Below the pieces are notes generated by a model, which made no database searches, was not told the DNA's origin, and was given only the letters and a program-made list of their open reading frames with translations. From positions 248,001-312,000 of the forward strand of contig JALCQD010000002.1 of the NCBI GenBank assembly GCA_022651005.1: a DNA stretch of 64,000 bases. The letters are read 5' to 3'. This DNA is from Bifidobacteriaceae bacterium. Lineage in GTDB: Bacteria > Actinomycetota > Actinomycetes > Actinomycetales > Bifidobacteriaceae. The translations under genes were made by a program, and so were the position numbers. Shown one piece after another: positions 619 to 17,061 of this stretch (position 1 is the stretch's first letter; the number at the start of each line of letters is the position of its first letter).

Positions 619-1956
619 CTATTCTAGAGAGTAGAGGCGGTCAGCGTTCTTGGTGTCCGGTCTGAAAGATGCATATGCAGTGCCGATAATTCCAAGGATG
701 GCGATGACGGTTACATAAATAATGACCGGCCAAATACTGTTGAATGAAGAAGTCAGTGCCGTAGCGATCAGGGGGGCAAATCCGCCGCCAAGTGTGTTTG
801 ACAATTGATAGCCAATATTGATACCCGTAGTGCGAGCTTCAACGTCGAACATCTCTGCAAGCATGGTTTGAAGTGTGGCCATCATAGCGACACCGGGGAA
901 GGCGAATCCAATGACCATGCCCAGCCAAATGAGCCAAGGAACTTGTGTCTCATACAGTTTGAATGTCGGATAGACTAATGCGGCAAATAAGATACAAGCT
1001 GCAATATAGATTTTTCGTCTGCCTATCTTGTCCGAAAGTGCTCCGAATAGGGGCGCGACGACAATCTGGAAGAGTCCCACGATGAGAGTTCCGATGAAGC
1101 CCACTTGGGCTGGGACGCCTTTCGTGATGACGTATGAAACGCCAAAAGTCAGGATGATGTAGCCAGCAATGCTCTGTGGAAGTCCGATCAAAATGCCTAG
1201 GATAGCGTTCTTTGGATGTCGGAGGATTTGCTTAAAAGGCATGTTCTTTTTGCCATTTTCACGTTCCTCTTTTTGCATTTCTTTGAACTCGTCAGAATCG
1301 TCGATCTTCTCTCTTAATACAACGGCGATAATTGCGAGAAGCAGTGCGAACCAAAATGGGATACGCCAGCCCCAAGTCATGAAGAATCCATGATCTCCAC
1401 CGGCCAAAGTTGACATAAAGCCCGCGGAGAATACATTGGCAATGCCTGCGCCGCTGATGAGGAAGGCCCCAAATAATCCGCGGTGCCCAGTTGTGGCGTG
1501 TTCAGTAACGAGAGAGGCTGCTCCGCCCATTTCTCCGCCTACAAAAAGACCTTGGAACATTCTTAAAATGAGAAGAATGATAGGTGCGGCAATACCTATC
1601 TTTTCAGTAGGGGGGATCATACCAATTCCTGCTGTGGCGATACCCATGCCTACAACAGTTATAAGTAGATTGGTCTTTCTTCCCCAGCGGTCACCAATAT
1701 GCCCAAATACGAGACCCCCAATAGGACGTAACAAGAATCCTACGGCAAAGCTTCCAAAGGATTGCATTGTTCCCACGGCAGCGTTATCTGTTGGGAAGAA
1801 CACGGTTGGAAAAACTGCAGCCGATGCCAGACCGAAAAGATAATAATCGTAATATTCGATGAGGGTGCCGATCGCCCCAGCTGCGATCATCCGCCCGCCA
1901 TGCTGATTGGTGTCCTTTTTTATACTAGAGTCAGACACCTGTGTTGCTTGGACCAT
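619..1956 (-). CDS. MFS transporter, metabolite:H+ symporter (MHS) family
   Basis: A predicted 12-TM inner-membrane symporter of 445 aa in the ProP/KgtP/ShiA group. Hallmarks are the N-terminal IEYYDYYLFG, the TM2-3 loop GHIGDRWGRKTNLL and the central loop GALSDKIGRRKIY. The ATG at 1956 is preferred over a TTG at 1974 because AAGGAGG stands 5 nt upstream of the ATG. MHS proteins take up carboxylates, betaines or sugar acids. Next to a KDPGal-type aldolase and kinase, a sugar acid such as galactonate is a reasonable guess, but the substrate cannot be read from the sequence. The gene is AT-rich compared with ackA and pta. It diverges from the aldolase gene. Confidence 0.85.
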   Translation of the reverse strand: MVQATQVSDSSIKKDTNQHGGRMIAAGAIGTLIEYYDYYLFGLASAAVFPTVFFPTDNAAVGTMQSFGSFAVGFLLRPIGGLVFGHIGDRWGRKTNLLITVVGMGIATAGIGMIPPTEKIGIAAPIILLILRMFQGLFVGGEMGGAASLVTEHATTGHRGLFGAFLISGAGIANVFSAGFMSTLAGGDHGFFMTWGWRIPFWFALLLAIIAVVLREKIDDSDEFKEMQKEERENGKKNMPFKQILRHPKNAILGILIGLPQSIAGYIILTFGVSYVITKGVPAQVGFIGTLIVGLFQIVVAPLFGALSDKIGRRKIYIAACILFAALVYPTFKLYETQVPWLIWLGMVIGFAFPGVAMMATLQTMLAEMFDVEARTTGINIGYQLSNTLGGGFAPLIATALTSSFNSIWPVIIYVTVIAILGIIGTAYASFRPDTKNADRLYSLE

Positions 1957-2206
1957 TAGAGCCTCCTTGCTCAATGACTGGTCTTTATTTTTTGCTATTG
2001 CGATTTAATTTTGCTTTCCAGCATGTGTCTGCGGAGGTCGTCTTTGACTGGTTCAAATCCTGTTCTGTGTCCACACGCTTGGTTAATTAAAGAATATCAG
2101 ACACTTTACAAAAATTCTATAAATCTATAAAATAAATTAAGCATTGATGTGAGATGCGGTTAACAACGAGGTTAAATTTTACGACTCTGAATTGGAATGG
2201 TGAGAA
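1957..2206. promoter_or_regulatory. Divergent AT-rich promoter region
   Basis: This 250-nt gap lies between the MHS transporter (minus) and the aldolase (plus). It is AT-rich, with a TTTACA followed by TATAAA-like hexamers around 2103-2132 reading toward the aldolase, and GGTTAA occurs three times (about 2080, 2158 and 2170). No clear long palindrome was seen. Promoter assignment is inference. Confidence 0.4.
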
Positions 2207-2842
2207 ATGCAGCTTCAAATCATTGAGGAAAAGAAAGTAATTGCGATATTGCGTAATCTTCCGGACGCTCAGATCAGTCCGGTAATTGAGTCCCTTCACG
2301 ATTCTGGTATAGATCTTGTCGAGATAGCGTTTAATAGATTCAAATCGGCCCAAGACAATGCAAATAGAATTCAGCGTGCAGTCAATTTAGGCATACCGAA
2401 TATGCATATTGGCGCTGGGACTGTCCTGACCGTTGAAGGGGTAGATAAGGCTGCCGATGCGGGAGCAGAATTTATTCTTTCTCCAAATACTGTTGATGAA
2501 GTTATAGGAGAGTCCAAACGGCTTGGACTTATTTCGGTTCCTGCTGCGTTGTCTCCTAGTGAGATCTGGAGAGCTTACGAGTTGGGGGCAGATATTGTCA
2601 AAGTATTTCCCGCGTCGTCTTTAGGTCCACATTATTTTAAAGAAATCTTGAGCCCTTTGCCTGGCATTCCTCTTAGCGCTGTTGGGGGAGTGGACGTGAA
2701 CAATGCCCGTCAGTTCTTGGATGCGGGAGCTTTTTGTCTGGGAATTGGCTCGGCGCTCTTCCCCCGAAATAAGGAAGGTGTAGTTGATGCGGAGCTTGTG
2801 CGAAAGCAAGCAGAGGAACTTCTGGGAACTGTTAACTCCTGA
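2207..2842 (+). CDS. KDPG/KDPGal (KHG-family) class I aldolase
   Basis: A 211-aa Eda/DgoA family aldolase that cleaves a 2-keto-3-deoxy-6-phospho sugar acid to pyruvate and glyceraldehyde 3-phosphate. The Schiff-base lysine is K132 in DIVKVFPAS, the general acid/base glutamate is E39 in LVEIAFN, and the GAGTVLT and SAVGGVD phosphate/substrate loops are intact. Length matches the family (~205-215 aa). The following gene is a DgoK-like kinase, which argues for the 6-phosphogalactonate rather than the 6-phosphogluconate isomer. Stop and next start are 14 nt apart, so the two genes are probably cotranscribed. Codon use is AT-rich. Confidence 0.92.
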   Translation: MQLQIIEEKKVIAILRNLPDAQISPVIESLHDSGIDLVEIAFNRFKSAQDNANRIQRAVNLGIPNMHIGAGTVLTVEGVDKAADAGAEFILSPNTVDEVIGESKRLGLISVPAALSPSEIWRAYELGADIVKVFPASSLGPHYFKEILSPLPGIPLSAVGGVDVNNARQFLDAGAFCLGIGSALFPRNKEGVVDAELVRKQAEELLGTVNS

Positions 2843-2856
2843 TTTGTGGAGGAATG

Positions 2857-3837
2857 ATGTACTCAATTTATTTTGATACAGGTACTACCAATACTCGTGC
2901 ATATCTTCTGAAAGATTACAAAGTTATTCTTTCGAAGAGTAGACACGTAGGAGCTCGAAACACGTCAATGGAGCGCTCGCATTCAATTTTGCGAGATACC
3001 CTGGTCTCTTTATTTGAGGAACTTCTCGTTGATAGGGGACTTTATCCACAACAGATAGATCATGCTTGCATTTCTGGAATGGCTACAAGTGGGGATGGCA
3101 TCCAGACGGTTCCACATCTTGCCGTTCCAGTTTCAAAAGTTGATATTCAAAAATCTTTGGTGTTGCTGAAAAACCCCATCTTCCCGATAAGAACTTGGTT
3201 AGTACCTGGAGTGAAGACGGATAGTAGTAATGGTGTAGCAACCCCAGAAGAAGCTACGAGGATTCAACAGATTCGAGGAGAAGAGGTCGAGGTTTTCGGC
3301 GTAATTGAGGGGAACTCTTCCTTGAATGATTGCACCGTGATTCTCACGGGGAGTCATACGCAAATTGTCTTTGTTAAGGATAGAAAGATCGTAGATATTT
3401 TTTCTAATATGAGTGGTGAGCTGAGAGAAGCAATTATAAAGAACACAATTCTAGGAGGAGCGCTGTCAGAGGGCATCGATGGTTCTTTTAATGAAGAGAT
3501 GGTACTTCTAGGTTCGCATCAATGTGAAAAGTATGGGATTAACCATGCTCTTTATGGAGTAAGAACGATGGAAGTATATTCGAATGCAACCTCTATCGAT
3601 AAGCATTCGTATTTCCAAGGGGTCTTAACTTCAGGTGTCGTACATGGATTACTGCAACGCATGAAAGAAAATATGAACAGTGCCAGGCGGATTTTTGTGG
3701 TCGGAAGAAAGACCGAATTTGACACTTATCGGCTTATCTTCAACGACATTGACAAAGATTTCATCATCCATTATTTGGAGTCTGATATTGTTCCGTATTC
3801 TGTTCGAGGTTATACGGCGTTAATGAATTGCCGATGA
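2857..3837 (+). CDS. 2-dehydro-3-deoxygalactonokinase (DgoK family)
   Basis: A 326-aa member of the DgoK family (COG3734, ASKHA fold). It phosphorylates 2-keto-3-deoxygalactonate with ATP, giving the substrate of the upstream aldolase. The phosphate-1 loop is FDTGTTNTR near the N-terminus. ILTGSHTQIVFV and GGALSEGIDGSF match the family's substrate and phosphate-2 regions. Two adjacent ATGs exist (2854, 2857). The second is preferred because the GGAGGA touches the first. A galactonate dehydratase is not in the window and may lie to the left. Base composition is AT-rich and drops abruptly at the end of this gene. Confidence 0.88.
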   Translation: MYSIYFDTGTTNTRAYLLKDYKVILSKSRHVGARNTSMERSHSILRDTLVSLFEELLVDRGLYPQQIDHACISGMATSGDGIQTVPHLAVPVSKVDIQKSLVLLKNPIFPIRTWLVPGVKTDSSNGVATPEEATRIQQIRGEEVEVFGVIEGNSSLNDCTVILTGSHTQIVFVKDRKIVDIFSNMSGELREAIIKNTILGGALSEGIDGSFNEEMVLLGSHQCEKYGINHALYGVRTMEVYSNATSIDKHSYFQGVLTSGVVHGLLQRMKENMNSARRIFVVGRKTEFDTYRLIFNDIDKDFIIHYLESDIVPYSVRGYTALMNCR

Positions 3838-3933: not shown

Positions 3934-5160
3934 TCAGGCTTTGAACTTGTGGCCGTAAGTGTCGCCTTCTGCGGCGATCTTTGCGGACTTGCGCGCGATG
4001 GCGAGTTCCTCGTTGGTGGGGTACACCACAACGGTGACCTTTGAATCAGGGGTGGAGATGATGCGCGGATCGTGGCTGCGAGTCGCGTTCTTCTCTTCAT
4101 CCAGCTTCACGCCGAACGGAGCGAGCTTGTCGATAACGCCCTTGCGCACCACGTCGTCGTTCTCACCCACGCCAGCGGTGAATGTGATGACGTCGAGGCC
4201 GCCCATCTGAGCGGTGTAGTTGCCGATGTAGCTGACAATGCGGTGGATGTAGATGTCGAGAGCGAGCTTTGCATTCTCGTCACCCTCGCTGATGAGGCGG
4301 TGCACCTCGCGCAGATCACCGAAGCCGGTCATGCCCATCATGCCGGACTTCTTGTTGAAGAGCTCATCGAGCTGGTCTACGTCCATATGAGCGTTGCGAA
4401 TGAGGTGGAAGACTGCCGCCGGGTCGATATCACCGGTGCGGCCGCCCATGACGAGGCCCTCGAGCGGGGTGAGGCCCATGGAGGTCTCCACCGGGACGCC
4501 GGACACCTGTGCGGACGCCGAAGCACCGTTGCCGATGTGCAGCACGATCTGCTTGAGGCCTTCAGCGGGCTTGCCAAGGAACTCGGGGATCACTCCGCCG
4601 ATGAACTCGTGGCTGGTGCCGTGAGCGCCGTAACGCTTGATCTTGTACTTCTCGGCAACTTCCTTATTGAGCGCGTAGGTTGACGCGGCAGCGGGGAGCT
4701 TGCTGAAGAAGGAGCTATCGAACACTGCGATCTGGGGAACGTCGGGCATGAGGTTGCTCATGACTTCGATGCCCTTTGCCTCGGGACCGTTGTGAAGCGG
4801 TGCGAGAACAGCGAGATCCTTGATCTTCGCGACGACGGCGTCGGTTGCTAGTGCGGGCTCGGGGAAGGTGGTGCCGCCCTGAACAACGCGGTGGCCGACG
4901 GCGACGATGCCTGCCTCTTGCAGGTTCGGACCGTATTCCTTGAAGAAGCCGAGCACGCGCTTCAAACCGGTTGCGTGATCCGGAATCTTCTCTTCGAGCT
5001 CGTGCTTTTCGCCGTTGTACTCGTGCTTGTAGTGGCCGTCGATCGGTTCACCAATCTTCTCGACGAGGCCAGAAGCGAGGCCTTCTCCGGATTCGAGGTC
5101 AACGAGCTGGTACTTGATTGAGCTTGAGCCAGCGTTGATGACAAGGACGGTTTGCGCCAT
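3934..5160 (-). CDS. ackA: Acetate kinase
   Basis: A 408-aa cytosolic acetate kinase: acetyl phosphate + ADP to acetate + ATP, the main substrate-level ATP step of the bifid shunt. The N-terminus QTVLVINAGSSSIKYQL, the HNGPEAKGIE region, the GAHGTSHE segment, the HIGNGAS loop and the FTAGVGEND adenosine site are all present. The start is the ATG at 5160 (MAQTV), with GGAGG 8 nt upstream. An in-frame ATG at 5175 would add only MEDAP. It lies 159 nt downstream of pta on the same strand and the two probably form an operon. It is G+C-rich, in contrast to the galactonate-type genes next to it. Confidence 0.98.
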   Translation of the reverse strand: MAQTVLVINAGSSSIKYQLVDLESGEGLASGLVEKIGEPIDGHYKHEYNGEKHELEEKIPDHATGLKRVLGFFKEYGPNLQEAGIVAVGHRVVQGGTTFPEPALATDAVVAKIKDLAVLAPLHNGPEAKGIEVMSNLMPDVPQIAVFDSSFFSKLPAAASTYALNKEVAEKYKIKRYGAHGTSHEFIGGVIPEFLGKPAEGLKQIVLHIGNGASASAQVSGVPVETSMGLTPLEGLVMGGRTGDIDPAAVFHLIRNAHMDVDQLDELFNKKSGMMGMTGFGDLREVHRLISEGDENAKLALDIYIHRIVSYIGNYTAQMGGLDVITFTAGVGENDDVVRKGVIDKLAPFGVKLDEEKNATRSHDPRIISTPDSKVTVVVYPTNEELAIARKSAKIAAEGDTYGHKFKA

Positions 5161-5319
5161 TGGGGCATCCTCCATCTAAATTTCCGGGCAATCGCATGCA
5201 TAGCGCTGCCCTTGTGGGATCATTTTCCTGTATTGAGACTACTCGGCGGACGCTACATCCGCATGAATGCATCGCCCGCCGAATGGTCTTATTTCACAAA
5301 TTTCGCGTACTGTCGTGCG
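5161..5319 (-). other. pta-ackA intergenic spacer with a hairpin
   Basis: This 159-nt gap between pta and ackA carries a 7-bp stem (5243-5249 with 5276-5282, TCGGCGG/CCGCCGA). It could be an attenuator or RNA-processing site inside the pta-ackA transcript. No gene seen. Confidence 0.35.
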
Positions 5320-7059
5320 TCACTTTTGAGCGCTGATGGCGGTCAGTGCGATGGTGTTGACGATGTCGCGTGTAAGTGCGCCACGGGACAGGTCGTTCAC
5401 CGGCTTGCGCAGGCCCTGAAGCACCGGGCCGATGGCCACGGCGCCGCTGGTGCGCTGCACTGCCTTGTACCCAATGTTGCCGGCGGAGAGGCTGGGGAAG
5501 ATGAACGTGTTGACGTGACCCGCGTACGGGTTGCCATTTGCTTTCTTCTCTGCAACCACCGGATCCCACGCGGCGTCGAACTGAATGGGGCCAACGACCT
5601 TGAGATCTGGGTAGTTCTCTTCGGCAATCTTTTCGCCCTCGGTGACGAGGTCAACGTCAGGACCGGAGCCGGAACCGAGCGTGGAGTAGGTGAGCATGCC
5701 GACGACGGGATCAATGCCAAAGGCTTCAGCCGTGCGTGCGGACTGGCGAGCGATCTCGGCGAGCTGCTCGGAGTTCGGATTGAGGTTGATGGCGCAGTCA
5801 GCGAACACATTCACGCGGTCCTCCATGCACATGAGGAAGGCGCCGGAGACGAGGTGATCGTCGGGGTTCGTCTTGATGATCTGCAGAGCCGGGCGCACCG
5901 TGTTTGCGGTGGAGTGTTTGGCGCCGCTCACCATGCCGTCGGCCAAACCGAGCTGGATGAGCATGGTGCCGAAGTAGCTGGGATCCTGCAGAGTGCTGGC
6001 TGCCTTCTCGGGCGTCATGCCCTTGTGACCACGCAGCTTGACGAGCTCTTCGATCATGGGATCAAGGACGGTCTTGTCGTTCATCGACTGGAAGGTCGCC
6101 TTGTCCGCAATGGCAGAGCCGAGGTTGAGGCCTTCTGCTTGGGCAAGGATGTCGGCTTTTTCGCCGACGATGACCACGTCTGCCACATCGCGGGAGAGCA
6201 GGTAGTCTGCGGCCTGGAGGATGCGATCGTCGTCGCCCTCGGGCAGCACGATCTTCTTTTTGTCGGACTTTGCCATGGCGAGCAGCGAATACTGGAAGCA
6301 GGCGGGCGTCACAACGGTGGTGACGGAGGAGGCGATGGCCGTGAGCACGTCGGTGTCGTCCACTGCGGATTCATAGGCAGAGGTCTGTGCCACGATCGCG
6401 GCGTCCGTATCGAGTTCTGCTGCCTCGGCGTCGGCAACGTACCATACGGGCAGCTCGTAATCCTTGAGTTCAGCGGTGGCTGCGGCCTTGAGTTCAGGGG
6501 AGCAGGGGCTCACGAAGACGCCAACAACGGGTGATCCGGTACCCTCGACGGCGGCGACAGAGGCCTTGATGGTCTCCGAGAGTTCGTAGGCGGTGCGGCC
6601 GGTTCCCTCCACCGTCACGATGACAGAGGACTGGAGGTCGGCGGCGATGAGCGAGTTGTTGAGCATCTTGCCCGGGTAGGCAACAGGGGTGTAATCGGAG
6701 CCGACGATGAGCGTGTAGTCGGCCTTCTTGAGGTCGTCGGACTCATAGAACTTGGTGACGATGTCCAGGCGTGCGTCGGCAGTGTTCTCGCGAATCTCTC
6801 GCGGCTTGACACCGATATGAGCCTCATGGTGTTCATTAGCGCCAGAGGTCTTTTCGTAGGCGCGGGCAGCGGCCAGGAAAAGATCCGTGGTGTGCTCGCC
6901 GTGTGCGCTTGCCGGACGGAAAACGCTGGGAGAGGAGAATTTTGTGGACAGCGACTTCAGAAGGCCTACGGCCACGGTGTCGCGTCCTGCGCCTCCCTCG
7001 GGGCTGAAAAGATACAGGCGGTCAGGTGTGCGGTTTCCGTGCAATGGAGCGATTTCCAT
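5320..7059 (-). CDS. pta: Phosphate acetyltransferase
   Basis: A 579-aa phosphotransacetylase interconverting acetyl phosphate and acetyl-CoA. The N-terminal ~250 residues are a P-loop-like domain (LFSPEGGAGRDTVAVGLLK). The C-terminal ~320 residues are the catalytic PTA_PTB domain (KKIVLPEGDDDRILQAA, then DGMVSGAKHST, STLGSGSGPDVD and NTFIFPSLSAGNIGYK). Length is close to other bifidobacterial Pta proteins as I recall them, and shorter than the ~700-aa enterobacterial form. AAGGAGA stands 6 nt before the ATG. It is transcribed ahead of ackA. With xfp at 14.2-16.7 kb it completes the route from phosphoketolase to acetate. Confidence 0.97.
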   Translation of the reverse strand: MEIAPLHGNRTPDRLYLFSPEGGAGRDTVAVGLLKSLSTKFSSPSVFRPASAHGEHTTDLFLAAARAYEKTSGANEHHEAHIGVKPREIRENTADARLDIVTKFYESDDLKKADYTLIVGSDYTPVAYPGKMLNNSLIAADLQSSVIVTVEGTGRTAYELSETIKASVAAVEGTGSPVVGVFVSPCSPELKAAATAELKDYELPVWYVADAEAAELDTDAAIVAQTSAYESAVDDTDVLTAIASSVTTVVTPACFQYSLLAMAKSDKKKIVLPEGDDDRILQAADYLLSRDVADVVIVGEKADILAQAEGLNLGSAIADKATFQSMNDKTVLDPMIEELVKLRGHKGMTPEKAASTLQDPSYFGTMLIQLGLADGMVSGAKHSTANTVRPALQIIKTNPDDHLVSGAFLMCMEDRVNVFADCAINLNPNSEQLAEIARQSARTAEAFGIDPVVGMLTYSTLGSGSGPDVDLVTEGEKIAEENYPDLKVVGPIQFDAAWDPVVAEKKANGNPYAGHVNTFIFPSLSAGNIGYKAVQRTSGAVAIGPVLQGLRKPVNDLSRGALTRDIVNTIALTAISAQK

Positions 7060-7482: not shown

Positions 7483-8517
7483 TCATTCTTGGAGCACTAA
7501 TTTCGCGGTGTCTCTGTCCACAATGAGGTGGGTGATGAACCCAGCTTTGAGCGCGACTCTGAGAGCGGCAGCTTTTTCCATGTCGGCGACTGCAAAGATA
7601 CGGATGGGAACGCGGAGCAACTCTTGCCGGGGCAAGCCGGTGGAACGCTTATTGACGGAGATGGATCCGGTGCTTCCGTCTTCTCGGAAGAAAAGGGAGG
7701 CGAGATTGCCAACGGTATGTTCGCGCGTCAATTCATCGATGTCCTTTGGGCTGATTCCCTCAGAACGAAAGAGGGGGGAAGGATGGGGGCCGCTGGAGGT
7801 TCCAAGCGAAGTGATGATGACGTCAAGGGACTTTCTCATGGAAAGCATATGTTTGATGCTAGGCTCCTCATACATCATCTTTCGTGTCTCTTCGGAAGCG
7901 AATACTGCGGGAACGGGGAAGAGGTAGACCGGGGCGTTGAAGGCGTTGCTGAAGCGCGTGAGAACTTGTGTCACGTAATTCTCGCCGTAGAGAACGGAGT
8001 CGCCGAACCCATGGAGCTGAAGGATTTTGATGCCGTCTTGCGGCGACGTCGTGAGATGGAGCGATATGGATTCCACGGTGCGCCCCCAGGCCACCCCAAT
8101 GGTCATATTCGGCGTGATGAGAGTGGCCAGCCACGCAGCAGCGTCTCGGCCCACTTCCATGAGGCGCATTTTGGAATCGGCCGACTCTGACGTCTCTGAA
8201 ACGATGACGGCCACACCGAAGCGTTTTCTGATGCGTTCCTGAAGTTCGGCCGTGGAATCCTTTTCCCTGTGAATCGTGAATTCGACGACGTGCTGCGCGC
8301 GAGCCAAGGCGAGTAATCGAGAAACTGTAGAGCGAGACACTTTGAGTCTGCGGGCCACCAGTTCGATCTTGAGTCCCTGTTTCCAGTAGAGTTCTGCTGC
8401 GTCGGCGATGCGCTCTCTCGTAGCACGCGACCCTGTGTATTCGGTCGTGGTTTCTTCTGATGCACCCGTGTGTGAATCGTTCTTTTGTGTCAACACAAAA
8501 ACAATCCTATGACACAT
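7483..8517 (-). CDS. SorC/DeoR-family sugar-binding transcriptional regulator (EryD-like)
   Basis: A ~340-aa regulator. The N-terminal HTH (IELVARRLKVSRSTVSRLLA) is followed by a C-terminal sugar-phosphate-binding domain of the SorC type (IGVAWGRTVESIS, KILQLHGFGDS, ITSLGTSSGP). EryD, the erythritol repressor, belongs to this family, and the neighbouring genes also resemble C4-sugar pathways. The start is uncertain: ATG 8517 has a poorly spaced GGGA, while GTG 8496 has AGGA 8 nt upstream. It diverges from the transporter operon. A palindrome at 8483-8500 overlaps its start region and suggests autoregulation and control of the operon. Confidence 0.85.
   Translation of the reverse strand: MCHRIVFVLTQKNDSHTGASEETTTEYTGSRATRERIADAAELYWKQGLKIELVARRLKVSRSTVSRLLALARAQHVVEFTIHREKDSTAELQERIRKRFGVAVIVSETSESADSKMRLMEVGRDAAAWLATLITPNMTIGVAWGRTVESISLHLTTSPQDGIKILQLHGFGDSVLYGENYVTQVLTRFSNAFNAPVYLFPVPAVFASEETRKMMYEEPSIKHMLSMRKSLDVIITSLGTSSGPHPSPLFRSEGISPKDIDELTREHTVGNLASLFFREDGSTGSISVNKRSTGLPRQELLRVPIRIFAVADMEKAAALRVALKAGFITHLIVDRDTAKLVLQE
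8483..8500. promoter_or_regulatory. Candidate SorC-type operator
   Basis: TTTTGTGTCAACACAAAA: 8-bp perfect arms around a 2-bp centre, in the intergenic region between the divergent regulator and the transporter operon. Overlap with the regulator's translation start fits autorepression. Binding is inferred, not shown. Confidence 0.55.
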
Positions 8518-8610
8518 TTTCCCAATTCGATGTTTTCCGTTTATGAATCTTCTTCGAAGTTGATACGTTTTCCAATAACAGCCATGTGGAATCACAAAGG
8601 AGTGGACCGT

Positions 8611-10026
8611 ATGTCACAAGAACCGCAAGACACGTTACCGGCGAGGCGTAGTCACTATCGCTGGGTAGTCCTCAGCACCATATTCGTCGGTTACGTCATC
8701 TGCATGGCGGACCGATCGAATATCGGCACCATTTTGCCCATGATGCGCGGAGAATTCGAGATCTCGAACTTTACCGCCGGCGCCGTTTCTTCCCTCTTCT
8801 TCCTGGGGTATGCGATTTCGCAGATCCCGGCAGGGCTCGTCATGGGAAAGAAAGGCACGAGGACCATCGTGTCGGTTGCAATTCTCGGATTCGCCATCGT
8901 TACCTTCCTCATTGGGCACACAACGGGAGCCTTGATGCTCCTGGTGTTGAGATTGTGCCTCGGCCTTATTGAAGGCGCGACGCCCGTTGGCATGACATCC
9001 ACCATCAATGCATGGTTCCCCTTCAAAGAAAAGGGAACGGCGACGGGTGTCTACATCGCATCGACAATGCTGGCTCCCATCATTGCCCCCATTCTCTCGA
9101 CTCACATCTCCAGTGCCTATGGGTGGCGACAGGTCTTCATCTGGGTGTCGGCCATTCCGGGGGTCATCATGGCGGTCGTTTTCTTCCTGGTGGTGCGTTC
9201 TCACCCATGGCAGAGTAAACACGTCAATAAGGCAGAACTCGACCATATCAAGGGCGACAGCGGATCTGCCGCCGCGGCTGCGCAAGATTTTGGCGATATG
9301 GGGATTCTTGACCGCATCATTCGTTTGACAAAGGCAAAGCCCTTCTCGACTAACCGTGAAGTGCTCAAATCGTGGAACATCTGGGGCGTTACGATTGCTT
9401 ACTTCTGCATGAACAACGTTCTCTATGGAATGATTACCTGGATTCCCAGCTATTTGCACGCAGCGCGAGGATACGATGTGATTTCTATGGGGTGGATGTC
9501 TGCAATGCCGTATATTGGCGGCTTTGTGGGAGCACTTCTCGGTGGCGTCGTCTCTGATCGCGTCTTCCACGGAAGGCGCAAGCCAACGATGATGCTGACG
9601 GCGCTCTTGACCGCAGTCATGATGGGATTGCTGCTCGTCACGCCGGACAATTCACTGCTTCTAGCCTTGGTGCTCATTTTCACTGGATTCTTCCTCAACA
9701 TAGGATGGTCCGCTTTCACTTCCATCGCTATGAACATGACCACGACGAAAACGTACCCCTTCGCCATCTCCATCATCAACAGTGGAGGCAATCTCGGAGG
9801 ATTCTTCTCGCCGATGATTGTGGGTGCAGTACTTGATCTCACTGGCAACTACACCATGGCCTTCAGCTACTTTGTTTTTATTCTTGTTGCAGCGTTCGTC
9901 ATTCTGTTCACACTGCGTGAATTCCGCCCTGGCTCCCGTCTCGAAGTCGGTGGCAAGGATGCAACTTCCGAGACTACGGCGTCGGTCTCTTCACAAGAGC
10001 CCGTTGCCGCGGCGAGCAATCGATAA
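8611..10026 (+). CDS. MFS transporter, anion:cation symporter (ACS) family
   Basis: A 471-aa predicted 12-TM proton-coupled symporter of the GudP/DgoT/ExuT type. It shows the ACS-like first segment RWVVLSTIFVGYVICMADRS, the SSLFFLGYAISQIPAG region and the RLCLGLIEGATPVG segment. The chosen ATG (8611) has AAAGGAG 8 nt upstream. Upstream in-frame ATGs lack this. ACS proteins typically import hexuronates, aldonates or aldarates. Here the next genes are a DUF1537 kinase and a PdxA-type dehydrogenase, so a four-carbon sugar acid such as threonate or erythronate is the best inference. It is the first gene of the operon, 15 nt before the kinase. Confidence 0.88.
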   Translation: MSQEPQDTLPARRSHYRWVVLSTIFVGYVICMADRSNIGTILPMMRGEFEISNFTAGAVSSLFFLGYAISQIPAGLVMGKKGTRTIVSVAILGFAIVTFLIGHTTGALMLLVLRLCLGLIEGATPVGMTSTINAWFPFKEKGTATGVYIASTMLAPIIAPILSTHISSAYGWRQVFIWVSAIPGVIMAVVFFLVVRSHPWQSKHVNKAELDHIKGDSGSAAAAAQDFGDMGILDRIIRLTKAKPFSTNREVLKSWNIWGVTIAYFCMNNVLYGMITWIPSYLHAARGYDVISMGWMSAMPYIGGFVGALLGGVVSDRVFHGRRKPTMMLTALLTAVMMGLLLVTPDNSLLLALVLIFTGFFLNIGWSAFTSIAMNMTTTKTYPFAISIINSGGNLGGFFSPMIVGAVLDLTGNYTMAFSYFVFILVAAFVILFTLREFRPGSRLEVGGKDATSETTASVSSQEPVAAASNR

Positions 10027-10041
10027 AGGAGGATCGATCGT

Positions 10042-11436
10042 ATGACACAGATCGGTATTGTCGCAGACGATGTGACTGGCGGCACAACAGTTGGGGCGCT
10101 TCTCGCGCGAGTCGGTACAACTCCCACGTTGTTTTACGACTATAAGCGTGTGGCGCAGGTCGCAGATCGCCGCAATCCTGCGGTCATCGTCAGCTCGAAC
10201 TCACGGTGCATGGAGGCGCAGGAGGCATATGACTCCGTCTTCGCTGCAACGCAAGAGCTCAAGAAGCTTGGAGTGACACAATTCTCAAAGCGCATTGATA
10301 CGACGTTGAGAGGAAACATCGGTGCCGAAGTAGACGCCATGCTCGATGCGCTTGGCAAGAATCACATAGCCGTCATTGTGGCATCCATGCCGCAATCAAA
10401 GAAAATTGTGCTCGATGGGTACTCGCTCATTGATTCCACCCTCCTGACTGACACTGCCGTGGTGCGGGATGTTCGCACGCCAGTGCATGAAGCGCACATT
10501 CCTACGTTGCTGCAATCTCAATTTCACGAACGCGTTGAACATGTTTCTCTCGATGTGGTGAAACGTGGAGTGACTGAAATCGAAGCCATGATGCGCACCA
10601 TGCTTGCTTCGTATTCGCGCATCTTTGTGATTGACGCCGTGACTCTTGATGATGTTGACACTATTGCATCAGCAGTCGTGAAACTGGGGAGACCAGTTGT
10701 AGCTGTTGATCCAGGCCCCTTCACGGTGAGCCTTGCGGTAGCGTCAGGAGCAATTGAGACTCATGACCACGTATGCCAAGCGGTGCGTGAGGAATGCCGC
10801 AGCGACGACAAGGGAACTGTAATGGTCGTCGCCGGCAGCGCCACTGGCGTCACTCAGATCCAGATGCAGCGCCTCCTCAAAGAACCAAGGACAGTCGCGT
10901 TCCTGGCAGATCCCCTGAAGCTGATCTCTTCCCACCCGGAAACTGTTGCAGAAGAGAATGCGCGTGTGGTGGCTGAAGCCGTCGAAGCCTTCACCTCTGA
11001 TGCGCAACCTCGTGTGGCAATACTTGCCGTTGACACGGCCATCACAGGGGAGCGGGCTTCCACTCGAGAGGAGCTGGAGAGCGCCAGTGGCTTGCCGGCT
11101 GATGAGGCTTCGAACCTCTTGACGCAACGTCTGGGCGAACTGGCTCGGCTCGTGTGCGATGTTGTGGGGCCTCAGCGTACTTCGGGGCTTTACCTCACCG
11201 GTGGAGACACGGTAGTACGTGTCTGGCAGGCGATCGGGGCCGACGGAATAAGGCTCACGGATTATGTGATTCCTCAGGTCGACCAGTCGCAGATCGTGGG
11301 CGGTCCCTTCGACGGTATCCCGGTGGTGTGCAAAGGCGGACTTACAGGTGACGACATCACTGCAGTCCAAGCAATTAATCGTCTGTTCGATGTGAACAGA
11401 ATTCATCAAACAATCGAAATGGAGAAGACAGTATGA
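10042..11436 (+). CDS. Four-carbon acid sugar kinase (DUF1537; DtnK/OtnK-like)
   Basis: A 464-aa member of the DUF1537 kinase family, whose studied members phosphorylate D-threonate, D-erythronate, 3-oxo-tetronate or related acids at O4. The N-terminal substrate domain has IGIVADDVTGG (family ADDLTGA) and KRIDTTLRGNIGAEVDA. The C-terminal ATP domain has YLTGGDTVVRVWQAIG and VCKGGLTGDD. AAAGGAGGA precedes the ATG. Its TGA overlaps the ATG of the PdxA-type gene (ATGA), so the two are translationally coupled. Pairing with a PdxA2-like enzyme points to D-threonate or a stereoisomer, but substrate specificity cannot be read from the sequence. Confidence 0.9.
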   Translation: MTQIGIVADDVTGGTTVGALLARVGTTPTLFYDYKRVAQVADRRNPAVIVSSNSRCMEAQEAYDSVFAATQELKKLGVTQFSKRIDTTLRGNIGAEVDAMLDALGKNHIAVIVASMPQSKKIVLDGYSLIDSTLLTDTAVVRDVRTPVHEAHIPTLLQSQFHERVEHVSLDVVKRGVTEIEAMMRTMLASYSRIFVIDAVTLDDVDTIASAVVKLGRPVVAVDPGPFTVSLAVASGAIETHDHVCQAVREECRSDDKGTVMVVAGSATGVTQIQMQRLLKEPRTVAFLADPLKLISSHPETVAEENARVVAEAVEAFTSDAQPRVAILAVDTAITGERASTREELESASGLPADEASNLLTQRLGELARLVCDVVGPQRTSGLYLTGGDTVVRVWQAIGADGIRLTDYVIPQVDQSQIVGGPFDGIPVVCKGGLTGDDITAVQAINRLFDVNRIHQTIEMEKTV

Positions 11437-12497
11437 GTACGAGGAAGCCAGTAACGGCAATCACTCTCGGAGATCCAGCGGGGATTGGTCCTGAAATTGT
11501 ACTCAAGACGATTCGCAGCCAGAAAGTTTACGACATCTGTGATCCGTTCATCATTGGACATCGGGACAGTCTTGAGCAAGCGGCAAAAGTTCTCGGCATC
11601 TCGGATCTGAATTTCAATATGATCAGCGATCCCTCCGAAGCAAAATATCAGCTGGGAACCATCGACCTTCTTCAAACGGATTGTGCTAATGACGCCGTTA
11701 TCGAATATGGCAGAATCCAGAAAGACGCTGCTCTACGTGCATACTCCTACCTGGAGAAGTCCATTGAGCTGGGGTTGGAGGGCAAGATCGATGCCGTGTC
11801 CACGTCCCCGATCAACAAGGCAGCGCTGAAGCTAGCGAACGTCCCCTACATCGGCCATACGGAGATCTACCAGGCCTTGACGAACTCCAAATACGCATTG
11901 ACCATGTTCAATGTTCATAAGTTGCGCGTTTTCTTCGTCAGCAGGCATGTGTCGCTGCGAGAGGCCTGCGATCTCGCCAATCATGACCGTATTCTCGACT
12001 TCATCAAGAACATCAATACTGAGTTCAAGAAGCTCGGCTTCGAGCACCCCACCATCGATGTTGCAGCCCTTAATCCTCATGTGGGCGAAGGCGGCATGTT
12101 CGGCACTGAGGAAATCACCGATATTGCGCCTGCTGTCAAAGATGCACAGGCGATGGGAATTGCTGCGCGTGGGCCGCTCTCTGCAGATGCTGTGTTCGCC
12201 ATGGATCTTGATGGCCATAGCGATTGCGTGCTCTCGATGTATCACGACCAGGGTCATATCGGATGCAAGACACTCGATTTTGAAAAGGCCGTAACCATCA
12301 CTCTGGGCCTGCCCTTCATGCGCAGTTCTGTGGATCACGGGACAGCTTTTGATCTTGCAGGAAAGGGAATCGCTCAGGGTAATTCGATGATTGAAGCGAC
12401 CCGAGTGGCATCTCTCTACGCAAAGATGCAGCTCGATCACAAAGAGAAAGTCGCTGCGCAACAAGCTCAGAAGGAAGCTCTCCTCGCGGCTCGGTGA
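11433..12497 (+). CDS. PdxA-family 4-phospho-sugar-acid dehydrogenase (PdxA2-like)
   Basis: A 354-aa homologue of 4-hydroxythreonine-4-phosphate dehydrogenase. PdxA2 enzymes paired with DUF1537 kinases oxidise a 4-phospho-tetronate, and the beta-keto acid loses CO2 to give dihydroxyacetone phosphate. Seen here: TLGDPAGIGPEIVLK, VSTSPINKAAL, the metal-binding histidines in GHTEIYQALT and AALNPHVGEGG, and the YHDQGHIGCK segment. It starts inside the kinase stop codon (ATGA overlap). A biosynthetic PdxA role in vitamin B6 synthesis is unlikely, given the kinase partner and the absence of other B6 genes nearby. Confidence 0.9.
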   Translation: MSTRKPVTAITLGDPAGIGPEIVLKTIRSQKVYDICDPFIIGHRDSLEQAAKVLGISDLNFNMISDPSEAKYQLGTIDLLQTDCANDAVIEYGRIQKDAALRAYSYLEKSIELGLEGKIDAVSTSPINKAALKLANVPYIGHTEIYQALTNSKYALTMFNVHKLRVFFVSRHVSLREACDLANHDRILDFIKNINTEFKKLGFEHPTIDVAALNPHVGEGGMFGTEEITDIAPAVKDAQAMGIAARGPLSADAVFAMDLDGHSDCVLSMYHDQGHIGCKTLDFEKAVTITLGLPFMRSSVDHGTAFDLAGKGIAQGNSMIEATRVASLYAKMQLDHKEKVAAQQAQKEALLAAR

Positions 12498-12525
12498 ACG
12501 GGGAATCAGAAAGGAAGAAAGTGCC

Positions 12526-12966
12526 ATGAAACTTGCTTTTGGTTGTGATCCCAATGCTACGGATCTCAAAGAAGTACTTATGAAAGAGGCGAAGAGTCTC
12601 GGCCACGAAGTCGTTGATTTTCCCTCAGAGGATCCCATTTATGCCAACGTTGCCATCAACGTGGCAAAGTCAGTCGCCGCAGGGGAGGAGGATCGCGGAA
12701 TCCTACTGTGCGGCACCGGAATCGGAGTCTCCATTGCCGCCAACAAGGTCGAGGGTGCCTACTGCGCCTGCGTTGCTGACATCTATCAGGCGGAACGTGC
12801 CACGTTGAGTAATGATGCAAACCTCATTTCGATGGGAGCTCAGGTTCTCGGGCCCAACACGGCCAAAGAGCTCATGCGTGCCTACCTCAGCGGTTCCTTC
12901 GATCCCAACTCTCGAAGCGCTCCGAAGGTAGAACGCATCAAAAAGTTCGAAGAAGAAAAGGCATAA
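12526..12966 (+). CDS. RpiB/LacAB-family sugar-phosphate isomerase (EryI/DerI-like)
   Basis: A 146-aa RpiB-type isomerase. The active-site cysteine is C62 in ILLCGTGIGVS, followed by the GTGIG oxyanion loop, and D8 lies in the N-terminal AFGCDP segment. The start ATG has AAGGAAG 9 nt upstream. A longer in-frame extension overlaps pdxA and is not supported. Housekeeping RpiB makes ribulose/ribose 5-phosphate. The same fold in erythritol and threitol pathways interconverts tetrulose 4-phosphate and erythrose 4-phosphate (EryI, DerI). Operon position favours the C4 role, by inference. The C-terminus is charged (KVERIKKFEEEKA). Confidence 0.85.
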   Translation: MKLAFGCDPNATDLKEVLMKEAKSLGHEVVDFPSEDPIYANVAINVAKSVAAGEEDRGILLCGTGIGVSIAANKVEGAYCACVADIYQAERATLSNDANLISMGAQVLGPNTAKELMRAYLSGSFDPNSRSAPKVERIKKFEEEKA

Positions 12967-12991
12967 CCGTATTCCTCAAGGAGGATCTCTC

Positions 12992-13759
12992 ATGGCCGTC
13001 GTGGCCCTCAGTCTCAAAATGTATTTCACGCGACAGCAGACGCTGGAGTACTGCCGCACGCTCGTTCGCCTTCTCAATGATCTCGATCGTAAGGAAGTCA
13101 AGGAGCGGAACGTCAGTATGGCAGTCCTGCCTGATTTCCTCAGCATTGCCGAGGTGGGGAACATTGTGTTGCCCGCAGGGATTCGCTTGGGATCGCAAGA
13201 TATATGTGCGGACGACAGAGGTTCCTTTACCGGCGAGGTATCGGGAACGGACTTGGCAGACTTGGGCTCCAGCGTGGCAGAGATTGGACATGTGGAGAGG
13301 AAGCTGCTGTTTCATGAGGAGCCGGCCTTGATTCGTCGAAAGGTGGACGCCGCGTGGCGTAACGGCTTGACTCCTCTGCTCTGCGTGGGAGAGAAGGAGC
13401 GTGCGGGTACGGACATGGCAGTTGACATATGCCTCAATCAGATTCGTGAGGCTGTGGGCACTGACGAGTCTTCTCCTCTGTGGGTGGCGTATGAGCCGTT
13501 GTGGGCCATCGGCGCCCGTAACCCTGCTCCTGCGGAATATGTGACTGCAGTGTGCTCCCGTCTCAAGGAGGCTGTAGCACCGCATGAGGATGCTGCAGTA
13601 TTGTACGGAGGGTCGGCAGGCCCGGGGCTTCTGACGCAGCTGTGGCCCTCGGTCGATGGTTTGTTCCTGGGGCGGTTTGCTCACAAACCAGAGGCTTTCA
13701 TCTCCGTATTGGAGGAGGCCTTGGAGCTCTCTACCATTCGGGAGCCGCTCACCATTTAA
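12992..13759 (+). CDS. Triose-phosphate-isomerase-family protein (TpiA2/EryH/LerI-like)
   Basis: A 255-aa TIM-barrel isomerase of the TPI family. The catalytic lysine is kept in SLKMYF, the catalytic histidine in EIGHVERK, the glutamate in AYEPLWAIG, and the phosphate loop in YGGSAGP. The canonical NWKMN is changed, so the conserved asparagine before Trp-Lys is a serine. This divergence fits an operon-specific paralogue. TPI homologues in erythritol and threitol catabolism isomerise tetrulose phosphates. Conversion of dihydroxyacetone phosphate to glyceraldehyde 3-phosphate is an alternative. AAGGAGG lies 7 nt before the ATG. It is the last gene of the operon. Confidence 0.85.
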   Translation: MAVVALSLKMYFTRQQTLEYCRTLVRLLNDLDRKEVKERNVSMAVLPDFLSIAEVGNIVLPAGIRLGSQDICADDRGSFTGEVSGTDLADLGSSVAEIGHVERKLLFHEEPALIRRKVDAAWRNGLTPLLCVGEKERAGTDMAVDICLNQIREAVGTDESSPLWVAYEPLWAIGARNPAPAEYVTAVCSRLKEAVAPHEDAAVLYGGSAGPGLLTQLWPSVDGLFLGRFAHKPEAFISVLEEALELSTIREPLTI

Positions 13760-14193: not shown

Positions 14194-16671
14194 TCACTCG
14201 TTGTCGCCTGCGGTCGCAGCAGTTGCGCTGACGGCACCAGGCAGATCGGTCTTGACGCCAGGCCACACCCAGTCGGTGTAGTCAGGGTGATCGTAACCGT
14301 TGTCGACGGCGAACTGGAAGGCATCCGTACGGAACTTCTCCAGCTTGTCGATCTCGGCGGCGAACTTGTTGGCGTCGACGGCACGCAGTGCCTCGGCGGT
14401 GAGTTCGTAACGATCGATGTCGTTGACGCGGACCATGTCGTATGGCGTGGTGGTGGAGCCCTGCTCCTTGTAGCCGTGGACATTGAAGTTGTCGTGGTTC
14501 GGGCGATCGTAGATCAGGCCGCGCACGTCATGTGCATAGGAGTGATAGGCGAACAGAACCGGCTTGTCAGCAGTGAACAGATCGGTGAACTCTGCATCGG
14601 AGAGGGCTTCGTCGTTCTCCTTGGTGGACTGCAGCTTGAGCAGATCCACAACATTGACGACCTTGAATTTGACACCGAGCTTGTTGAGCTTGTCGGCAGC
14701 AGCCATGAGTTCCTGGGTGGGGACGTCGCCTGCGGCGGCGAGCACAACCTGAACCTCATCGTTGCTCTTGACGTTGGAAGCCCACGTCCACTCTGCAGCG
14801 CCCTTTTCGAGCTCTGCACGTGCCTCGTCGAGCGTGACCCAGGTAGCAGCAGGCTGCTTGCCAGCGATGATCGCGTTGATCTGGTTGGTGGAGTTGTAGG
14901 TGCGCTCTGCAACAGCGAGGAGCATGTTGGCATCCACAGGGAAGTAGATGTTGACAACGTGATCGTTGTTGAAGGTCTTGTTCAGCAGGAGCGACGTCAC
15001 GCCCGGATCCTGATGGCTGAAGCCATTGTGATCCTGACGCCACACGTGGGAGCTGACCAGGAGGTTCATCGAGGAGATGGGCTTGCGCCACGGAATCTCG
15101 CGGACCGTTGCTTCCAGCCACTTTGCGTGCTGGTTGAGCATGGAGTCGATGACGTGAACGAAGGACTCGTAGGAGCTCCAGATGCCGTGGCGACCGGTGA
15201 GGAGGTAGCCCTCGAGGAAGCCTTCCATCTGATGCTCGGAGAGCTGCTCGGTGACCTGACCGGTGACGGCCATGTGCTCGTCAACCAGGCTGGAGAGGTA
15301 ACCGGCATCCCACTGCTTGTTGGTGACTTCGTAGGCAGCGGAGAGACGGTTCGAAGCGGTCTCGTCAGGTCCGAAGATACGGAAGCTGTCAGGGTTGTTC
15401 TTGACAACGTCGCGGGTGTAAACGCCCAGACGACGAGTTGCCTCGAGCTGTCCCCAGCCGTGTCCGAATTCCTTGACTTCCTTGACCTCGTAGTCGTCGA
15501 GCTTCGGGAGCTTGAGATCCTCGCGGATGCGGCCACCGTTTGCGTTCGGGTTCTGACCGATGCGCAGTTCGCCCTTGGGCATGAACGCGGTGACTTCGGG
15601 ACGCAGAGCGCCCTTCTCGTCGAACAACTCGGCGGGCTTGTAGGAAGCCAGCCAGTTCTTGAGGACGTTGAAGTGTTCTTCGGTGTCGCGCGCGGAAGCG
15701 AGCGGAACCTGGTGTGCACGCCAGGAGCCTTCGGTCTTCTTGCCATCGATGAACTTCGGGCAGGTCCAACCCTTGGGCGTGCGGAAGATGATCATCGGGT
15801 AGAACGGACGCTCCATGTCGTTCGTCTGGGCAGCTGCCTTGATGTCGCAGATCTCGTCGAAGACGGTCTCGAACAGGTCGGCGAAGCGGCGGTGGATCGA
15901 AAGGTGATCCTCGTCGTCGAAGCCAGCGATGAACTCGTAGGGTTCGTAACCCATGCCGTGGAAGAACTCGTGCAGCTCGTCATCCGAGATGCGGGAGAGG
16001 ATCGACGGGTTGGCGATCTTGTAACCGTTGAGGTGCAGGATCGGCAGAACGATGCCGTCGGTGCGGGGGTTCACGAGCTTGTTGGACTGCCAGCCGGTGG
16101 CCAGAGGGCCAGTCTCAGCTTCGCCGTCGCCAACGATGGCGGGGACGAAGAGGCTGGGGTTGTTCATGATGGCGCCGTAAGCGTGGGAGAGCGCGTATCC
16201 GAGCTCGCCACCCTCGTGGATGGAACCGGGGGTCTCAGGTGCGAAGTGGGAGGGGATGCCGCCCGGGTAAGAGAACTGGCGGAAGAACTTCTGCATGCCC
16301 TCTTCGTTGTTGGTGATCTGCGGGTAGTACTCGGAGTACGTTCCGTCGAGATAAGACTGTGAGGTTCCTGCAGGACCGCCGTGGCCGGGTCCCATGATGA
16401 TCACGGTGTTCTGCTGGTGATCAGCGATGAGGCGGTTGATGTGTCCGATGAGGAAGTTCAGACCGGGAGTGGTGCCCCAGTGGCCGACGAGACGATGCTT
16501 GACATCCTCGCGCGTGAACGGTTCCTTCATCAAAGGATTGCTACGCAAATAAATCTGGCCAATGGACAGGTAGTTGGCAGCGCGCCAATACTTGTCGATG
16601 CCTTCAATGGCTTCCTCAGAAACGGGAGCGTCAAGCTTCTTCCAAGGAGTGCCGATAACAGGATTCGTCAT
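14194..16671 (-). CDS. xfp: Xylulose-5-phosphate/fructose-6-phosphate phosphoketolase
   Basis: An 825-aa thiamine-diphosphate enzyme, the hallmark of the bifid shunt. It cleaves fructose 6-P to erythrose 4-P and acetyl-P, and xylulose 5-P to glyceraldehyde 3-P and acetyl-P. Seen: [40 protein letters not shown], the TPP site beginning GDGEAETGP and ending LNGYKIANP, and the [17 protein letters not shown] segment. Length equals my recollection of Bifidobacterium Xfp. The ATG at 16671 has AGGAGA 6 nt upstream. An upstream extension to 16770 is not supported. It diverges from guaA, the usual bifidobacterial arrangement. Acetyl phosphate then passes to the nearby pta and ackA products. Confidence 0.99.
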
Positions 16672-17061
16672 TTGTTCTCCTGCACTTTTGTGCGATCGGT
16701 TATTGTTCTCGGAACGTCTTGAATCCGATAGATCACTTACTCTGTGTCGGTCTGGACTCTTGCGTTCCAATCGCCCCCTATCTTATGGGAATGAGGAGAC
16801 TTTTGCACCTTCTAATAGCTAAATGTGCGATGTCACTTAGCGGAACCGTTGGAATGCAAGGCGAAACACCGATTGGCACGTTCTACTAACAGTGAAGAAA
16901 GTAACAAAATCTATCAAAAATCTTAAGAATTGTTATCTTTTGTCCGTTCTGCTGAGAGAGTCGCAATGTCGGAACAAATCGGCATAATTGCTATATTCAC
17001 GCTCACTTAGAGAGGTCCTCTACGGCCGCCCGGCCAGTACATGACCACTTACGGAGGAAAA
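16672..17061. promoter_or_regulatory. Divergent xfp/guaA promoter region
   Basis: This 390-nt region between divergent xfp and guaA has no gene. The centre (16890-16945) is AT-rich, with a TCTTAAGA palindrome and a near-inverted pair GTAACAA/TTGTTATC. A TATATT at about 16990 is a candidate guaA -10 box. Just before guaA there is an AGAGG-T-CCTCT palindrome. Transcription starts are not resolvable by eye. Confidence 0.4.

Follow-up and report, generated by a model that had tools for sequence, protein, structure and literature searches.

A stretch of 64,000 nucleotides from a Bifidobacteriaceae bacterium (contig JALCQD010000002.1, positions 248,001 to 312,000; the whole stretch is called the window here) harbours a tightly packed sugar-acid operon that an earlier, sequence-only reading had assigned to the degradation of four-carbon (C4) acids. 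From a comparison with related operons we propose instead that it imports and degrades a branched C5 sugar acid, most likely 2-C-(hydroxymethyl)tetronate ('isoapionate'), to erythrose 4-phosphate (E4P), a proposal for which we see slightly better than even chances. The six-gene layout of the earlier reading, with its coordinates and gaps, was reproduced throughout, and each gene family was confirmed by Pfam with scores far over the cut-off. The genes are the following.

7483..8496, minus strand: SorC/DeoR-type sugar-binding regulator, divergent from the operon; PF04198 (Sugar-bind), 177.5 bits
8611..10026, plus strand: MFS transporter, probable acid importer; PF07690 (MFS_1), 223.7 bits; 15-nucleotide gap to the kinase gene
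10042..11436, plus strand: DUF1537 acid-sugar kinase of the isomerase-linked clade; PF07005 (SBD_N), 172 bits, and PF17042 (NBD_C), 82 bits
11433..12497, plus strand: PdxA2-type oxidative decarboxylase (4-phospho-acid dehydrogenase); PF04166 (PdxA), 320.5 bits; 4-nucleotide overlap with the kinase gene
12526..12966, plus strand: RpiB-like isomerase; PF02502 (LacAB_rpiB), 135 bits; 28-nucleotide gap after the PdxA2 gene
12992..13759, plus strand: isomerase resembling triose-phosphate isomerase (TPI); PF00121 (TIM), 168 bits; 25-nucleotide gap after the RpiB-like gene

Distribution of the operon

The window belongs to a genome of 2.16 Mb, with family relatives that include Bifidobacterium catulorum and B. 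asteroides. When 151 Bifidobacteriaceae genomes were sampled, a DUF1537 kinase of the operon's type was present in six, the window's genome counted, and all six carry the full set of SorC, MFS, kinase, PdxA2, RpiB and TPI genes. Because the kinase always comes with the same gene set, the operon is not a chance assembly. In B. asteroides ESL0199 (G081, locus L014) the MFS gene consists of two open reading frames and the kinase gene of two pieces; this copy looks damaged and may be decaying. In class-wide and order-wide genome searches, close DUF1537 kinases were rare, and most of those in other actinobacteria were only distantly related (29-36% identity). A pattern scan of GTDB, for which the patterns were strict, gave only eight loci.

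The kinase and PdxA2 fall into two clades

Operons with a DUF1537 kinase and PdxA2 split into two groups. Tetrulose-type isomerases accompany 11 of the analysed sequences (five from Bifidobacteriaceae, among them the window, three from another Actinomycetales genus, and one each from Actinomyces israelii, Micropruina and Klebsiella pneumoniae), whereas the other ten (two Bacillota metagenome-assembled genomes, an E. coli plasmid and seven actinobacteria) are free of them. The permease of these isomerase-free operons is usually of the GntP type, and of the SLC13 type in E. coli. The division corresponds to one branch in the kinase tree (97/100, present in all bootstraps) and in the PdxA2 tree (97% of bootstraps), and linkage to isomerases, found in 11/11 members of one clade and 0/10 of its sister group, represents a single change on the tree. 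In addition, at least two TPIs were found in all carriers of an isomerase-linked operon, compared to one in four genomes with an isomerase-free operon.

The two groups also differ in their residues. The acid-binding motif DDxTG of the kinase is followed by TT (T15-T16) in all isomerase-linked sequences and by NA or NG (N15-A/G16) in all isomerase-free ones; in the window it reads DDVTGGTTVG. The isomerase-linked PdxA2 clade retains all phosphate and metal motifs of PdxA (GHTE, SRH/TRH, NPH, YHDQGH-K and R297) and has clade-specific residues at A130, A286, V287, T288, M296 and S298. These differences concentrate at residues 286-298, the substrate-binding loop, in which we take position 288 to be equivalent to Asn283 of E. 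coli PdxA. The window PdxA2 reaches the PdxA model NF002992 (477.4 bits, cut-off 470) and scores 273.1 bits against the D-threonate 4-phosphate dehydrogenase model NF002891, below its cut-off of 583.

According to the sequence-only reading, the kinase and PdxA2 would turn an acid of the D-threonate or D-erythronate type into dihydroxyacetone phosphate (DHAP); the isomerases would then play only a supporting part in triose or pentose phosphate metabolism, or act on tetrulose phosphate of a different origin. The best named models, D-threonate kinase and PdxA, agree with this, and related enzymes are known to yield DHAP by this chemistry (Zhang 2016, as cited in PMC9997740). However, the operons that fit the C4 route, with DtnK, PdxA2 and a GntP or SLC13 permease, lack isomerases, and both their kinases and their PdxA2 proteins branch as a clade of their own. 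Moreover, the genome already possesses a canonical TPI (290 bits), the operon isomerases lack the canonical residues, and five carriers have no DAK-type kinase that could feed the isomerases. We consider a C4 substrate unlikely, and this half of the earlier reading, C4 acid to C3 phosphate, was not upheld.

The isomerases are very probably of the tetrulose phosphate type

Two TPIs are encoded in the window's genome, the canonical copy and the operon copy, which score 290 and 168 bits against PF00121, respectively. The operon TPI retains the catalytic Lys, His and Glu (motifs LSLKMYF, GHVER and AYEP), but Asn11 is replaced by Ser. With LSLKMYF in place of GNWKMN and its low PF00121 score it does not qualify as a canonical TPI. 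The same Asn-to-Ser change recurs in TPIs encoded by erythritol and apionate operons and by most DAK operons, and in the tree the protein falls into a 12-row clade (100/99) with TPIs encoded beside DAK-type kinases or EryA/B-type genes, while the canonical TPIs stand apart. Its best solved relatives include the unassigned fungal protein 3s6d and the 'L-erythrulose-1-phosphate isomerase' 11ef, among ordinary TPIs. A role as a spare glycolytic TPI was ruled out by the canonical copy elsewhere in the genome and by the loss of the Asn of GNWKMN.

The RpiB-like protein, for which 5ifz is the closest solved structure (123 bits), has lost both ring-opening His residues (DP for DH and SN for HN; CDPNA and LSND compared to DHAG and H-N) and keeps CGTGIGV. 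It reaches the broad RpiB subfamily model NF004051 (144.1 bits, cut-off 135) and lacks the Asp-His and His-Asn motifs that mark a canonical ribose 5-phosphate isomerase B. These changes are shared with the RpiBs of erythritol, apionate and DAK operons, and not with canonical RpiBs, and the tree groups the protein with the former (95/94). Judging from RpiB chemistry, the loss of the ring-opening His is as expected, because a tetrulose 4-phosphate is unable to close into a furanose ring as a pentose phosphate does. In characterised systems, LerI converts L-erythrulose 1-phosphate to D-erythrulose 4-phosphate and DerI converts the latter to E4P (PMC10733421), while EryH and EryI are the isomerases of erythritol catabolism in Brucella that lead to E4P (PMC5992420). 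EryH and LerI represent the TPI type among these erythrulose phosphate isomerases, EryI and DerI the RpiB type. Taken together, the missing canonical residues and the trees agree with the tetrulose phosphate type that the earlier reading had proposed for both isomerases; the pair appears to be a divergent branch of the tetrulose isomerases, and the sequences argue strongly that tetrulose phosphates are its substrates.

The state of the RpiB-like protein also bears on a C6 acid, a hexonate or hamamelonate, the phosphate of which would be decarboxylated to a pentulose phosphate and isomerised to ribulose or xylulose phosphate for phosphoketolase. This would follow the oxidative decarboxylation logic of 6-phosphogluconate dehydrogenase, and a phosphoketolase gene adjoins the operon. 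Nevertheless, the loss of both His residues tied to pentose ring opening points to an open-chain, tetrose-type substrate, and TPI-type enzymes act on carbonyls beside CH2-O-phosphate. A C6 acid is thus very improbable.

Two other loci with RpiB-like proteins were observed. A short RpiB/LacAB-like protein of the window's genome (G000:C5:32282-32617; about 9235-9918 of L108; 61 bits) has its active-site motif shifted to CGTGEGA and adjoins a transketolase and a short-chain dehydrogenase, in a sugar-phosphate locus unrelated to the operon. On the Cryobacterium plasmid pA10BH1 (L027), a DPNA-type RpiB, 60% identical, lies beside a canonical-type TPI; its neighbours are a two-subunit DhaK/DhaL kinase, an aquaporin, a class II aldolase and a split transketolase.

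Different lineages carry different isomerases

In Bifidobacteriaceae and A. israelii, a SLKMYF-type TPI is combined with a DPNA-type RpiB. Micropruina has a GTSWKMN-type TPI with a DN-type RpiB, and Klebsiella a GTSWKMN-type TPI with a DD-type RpiB, followed by transaldolase and transketolase, the enzymes that use E4P. The SLKMYF clade is a branch separate from the GTSWKMN type and is not nested in it. The isomerases are therefore not one inherited block, and the operon was probably put together independently in different lineages. The same kinase/PdxA2 clade gained isomerases that match in function but differ in type, and this speaks more strongly than any other single argument for one pathway shared by the isomerases and the kinase/PdxA2 pair. 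It is very likely that this pathway ends at E4P, an intermediate of the bifid shunt, as the sequence-only reading had suggested; the tetrulose-type isomerases, the LerI and DerI steps and the transaldolase-transketolase context in Klebsiella all point to this outlet.

The Klebsiella operon (L031) has further peculiarities. Its DUF1537 kinase (7617-9335) is fused behind a domain of the IIB type of the glucitol/sorbitol phosphotransferase system (PTS), and with its PTS IIA gene and a gene of the KDG permease type the operon is an unusual hybrid of PTS parts and an acid-sugar kinase.

The source of the tetrulose phosphate and the nature of the acid

The TPI gene of A. israelii follows a DAK-type kinase gene, immediately on the other side of the SorC gene. 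A second operon of G016, a genome of the window's genus, has the order SorC - DAK - TIM-barrel isomerase - PdxA-like - GntP - RpiB - TPI, and its DAK family was confirmed.

9958-17937 of L103 (G016:C17:33000-52000): sister operon; RpiB 79% and TPI 67% identical to those of the window operon

These DAK neighbours indicate that isomerases of this kind do serve erythrulose kinases. The PdxA-like protein of L103 has DELR and lacks the substrate motif GHTE; its activity may be different or lost. No DAK gene was found in five of the six Bifidobacteriaceae carriers (the window's genome, G023, G109, G079 and G081), so that for these five an erythrulose kinase encoded at another locus, as G016 has it, is ruled out as the partner of the isomerases. 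The tetrulose phosphate must then come from the kinase and PdxA2, and we have strong reason to infer that PdxA2 produces it.

PdxA2 oxidises C3 of a 4-phosphorylated acid, upon which CO2 leaves, as is established for threonate 4-phosphate and 4-phosphohydroxythreonine. Since this chemistry yields a tetrulose phosphate from a C5 acid only, the acid needs five carbons; a C4 acid would give DHAP and leave both tetrulose isomerases without a substrate. If the product is L-erythrulose 1-phosphate (HOCH2-CHOH-CO-CH2OP), on which TPI-type isomerases act, the acid must be HOOC-C(OH)(CH2OH)-CHOH-CH2OP. This compound is 2-C-(hydroxymethyl)tetronate 4-phosphate, or isoapionate 4-phosphate, and lies one oxidation step below 3-oxo-isoapionate 4-phosphate, a known intermediate that OiaX decarboxylates in the rhizobial operon L028; isoapionate itself is the reduced form of 3-oxo-isoapionate. 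Chemical logic thus points, with moderate confidence, to a C2-branched acid as the substrate. Apionate itself was rejected, as its C3 is tertiary and not oxidisable by PdxA chemistry.

Five carbons could also be supplied by a linear pentonate, which the kinase would convert to a pentonate 5-phosphate, PdxA2 by C3 oxidation and decarboxylation to erythrulose 4-phosphate and the RpiB-like enzyme to E4P; the TPI-like enzyme would then correct stereochemistry or be auxiliary. Plant and gut material commonly contains pentonates, three genomes have RpiB as the sole isomerase of the operon, and the output would still be E4P, matching the transaldolase-transketolase context in Klebsiella. On the other hand, characterised DUF1537 kinases and PdxA or PdxA2 enzymes use acids with the phosphate on the carbon beside C3, and a 5-phosphate is one carbon too far. 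The TPI would moreover be dispensable, yet Bifidobacteriaceae, A. israelii, Micropruina and Klebsiella all have it in the operon or just beyond the divergent SorC gene. We regard a linear pentonate as improbable.

Proposed degradation of a branched C5 acid

We propose the following route for the C2-branched acid. The MFS protein, for which the best NCBIfam model is the D-galactonate transporter TIGR00893 (210.9 bits, below the cut-off of 395), is related to symporters of D-galactonate and acid sugars and would probably import the acid. The DUF1537 kinase would phosphorylate O-4, and PdxA2 would oxidise the C3 hydroxyl with NAD+, giving a beta-keto acid that loses CO2 to form L-erythrulose 1-phosphate, in parallel to the conversion of threonate 4-phosphate to DHAP. 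The TPI-like enzyme would then form D-erythrulose 4-phosphate, and the RpiB-like enzyme D-erythrose 4-phosphate. Finally, transaldolase, transketolase and the phosphoketolase of the neighbouring gene could carry E4P into the bifid shunt.

DUF1537/PdxA2 pairs can also feed pyridoxal phosphate synthesis (Thiaville 2016, as cited in PMC9997740), and salvage of phospho-threonate or 4-hydroxythreonine for vitamin B6 has been proposed for some of them. The layout of an inducible operon with a transporter and two sugar-phosphate isomerases is catabolic, which makes such a salvage role extremely unlikely here.

The earlier reading had suggested that the operon joins two ideas and delivers C3 phosphates and perhaps E4P. 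Of these outputs E4P was retained and the C3 phosphates were dropped, which leaves a single linear route. No description of a C5-acid-to-E4P route via a kinase and PdxA2 was found in the literature on apionate and isoapionate or on bifidobacterial use of threonate and erythronate. That we are dealing with an undescribed route, in which a 4-phosphorylated C2-branched C5 aldonate is decarboxylated in one step by an enzyme of this PdxA2 clade to reach E4P, and which serves as a shunt entry in Bifidobacteriaceae and was assembled independently in other Actinomycetota and Klebsiella, has in our judgement an even chance of being correct. The predicted pathway, of the apionate/erythrulose phosphate type, would occur in few Bifidobacteriaceae, and also in other actinobacteria and in Klebsiella.

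Several observations weigh against this proposal. In three Actinomycetales genomes (G595, G716 and G849) RpiB is the sole isomerase of the operon and a LerI-type TPI is located elsewhere. The RpiB-like protein scores 135.9 bits with the DerI model, below the cut-off of 240, a model apparently built on the rhizobial branch (L028 256 bits, L030 252 bits). The OiaK model does not match the kinase, and its best named model, D-threonate kinase NF047819, gives 186.9 bits, far below the cut-off of 450; three isomerase-free kinase homologues also stay below that cut-off, with 182-255 bits. Given these scores below the curated cut-offs for DtnK, PdxA2 and DerI, we do not file the proteins in those equivalog families, and claim that they function in the manner of these families. 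Furthermore, the literature yielded no biochemical result for any enzyme of the isomerase-linked kinase/PdxA2 clade, and free isoapionate in nature was not found in the literature searched.

If the proposal is true, the physiological product of one PdxA2 clade is new, with a tetrulose phosphate in place of DHAP, and a sugar acid gains its first known degradation route. Bifidobacteria would gain an entry at E4P, the node to which their central pathway owes its unusual character. Since the kinase motif, the dehydrogenase residues and the isomerases change together, the operon provides a sequence signature by which proteins of gut and soil bacteria now labelled 'threonate kinase', 'PdxA', 'ribose-5-phosphate isomerase' or 'triose-phosphate isomerase' would be reannotated.

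Regulator and operator-like sites

For the regulator, the best NCBIfam model is DeoR of the Bacillus type (180.8 bits, below the cut-off of 420), and its sugar-binding domain is of the SorC type. The comparison with the repressor EryD holds to the extent that this SorC-type protein (PF04198) resembles the kind used in erythritol operons. Orthologues with 47-61% identity are divergent from the same operon in relatives. The longest open reading frame begins at 8595; we placed the start at GTG 8496, because ATG 8517 falls within the first of two operator-like copies between the SorC and MFS genes, which are 51 bp apart.

8510-8522, plus strand: operator-like copy TGACACATTTTCC
8561-8573, plus strand: operator-like copy TGATACGTTTTCC

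The site TGAYACRTTTTCC has two exact matches in the window, compared to 0.21 expected with up to one mismatch allowed, and the genome contains no further exact match. G016 repeats the pair at the identical 51-bp spacing. With up to one mismatch, the site was found in 7/9 homologous intergenic regions; it was not found in that of G079. Acting through the TGACACATTTTCC sites, the SorC protein might keep the operon repressed as long as no phosphorylated intermediate is present, and such an intermediate could conceivably be its effector.

Genomic surroundings

The operon is flanked by pta-ackA (3934-7059) on one side and the phosphoketolase gene xfp (14194-16770) on the other, and xfp also adjoins it in two relatives (L010 and L011). 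Beyond ackA lies a second acid-sugar group (619-3837) with an MFS transporter, a KDPG/KHG-type aldolase and a 2-keto-3-deoxygalactonokinase, together with a fall of the G+C content to 0.43 at 3.0-4.0 kb of the window. The pta-ackA-xfp region looks like a landing place for sugar-acid genes.

Comparison with known systems

The window operon shares with D-threonate catabolism (DtnK and PdxA2) the two enzyme families and the chemistry on C2-C4 of the acid. It differs in the kinase motif TT instead of NA/NG, in its own PdxA2 residues and in the product, which would be a tetrulose phosphate and not DHAP. Erythritol and threitol catabolism (Brucella EryABCD-HI; LerK, LerI and DerI) likewise has a SorC-type regulator and TPI- and RpiB-type isomerases leading to E4P; in contrast, the window operon has no polyol dehydrogenase and no polyol or erythrulose kinase, and its input would be an acid. 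The DAK-type erythrulose operons (Pantoea, Erwinia and Arthrobacter plasmids, L103 of G016 and L017 of A. israelii) have a TPI of the same clade (100/99), and L103 also the 79% identical RpiB and a related SorC regulator. There, however, the tetrulose phosphate is formed by a dihydroxyacetone/erythrulose-type kinase and not from an acid by a kinase and PdxA2.

A parallel in carbon skeleton is D-apionate catabolism through OiaK, OiaX, LerI and DerI, in which a branched C5 acid ends as E4P. As in the window, the rhizobial operon L028 (Rhizobium sp. N731 plasmid; OiaX 786 bits, cut-off 700; DerI 256 bits, cut-off 240) combines a DUF1537-family kinase with TPI-type and RpiB-type erythrulose phosphate isomerases. 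There, ApnO isomerises the acid to a 3-oxo acid, which is phosphorylated and then decarboxylated by the RuBisCO-like OiaX. OiaX/OiaC and ApnO were not found among the operon proteins of the window, the rest of the genome not having been searched for them. In the window the kinase is not OiaK-like, and the PdxA2-type enzyme would oxidise and decarboxylate the hydroxy acid in one step. L028 thus offers a precedent for a kinase of this family, for a branched C5 skeleton and for the isomerases, and the PdxA2 step alone would be new.

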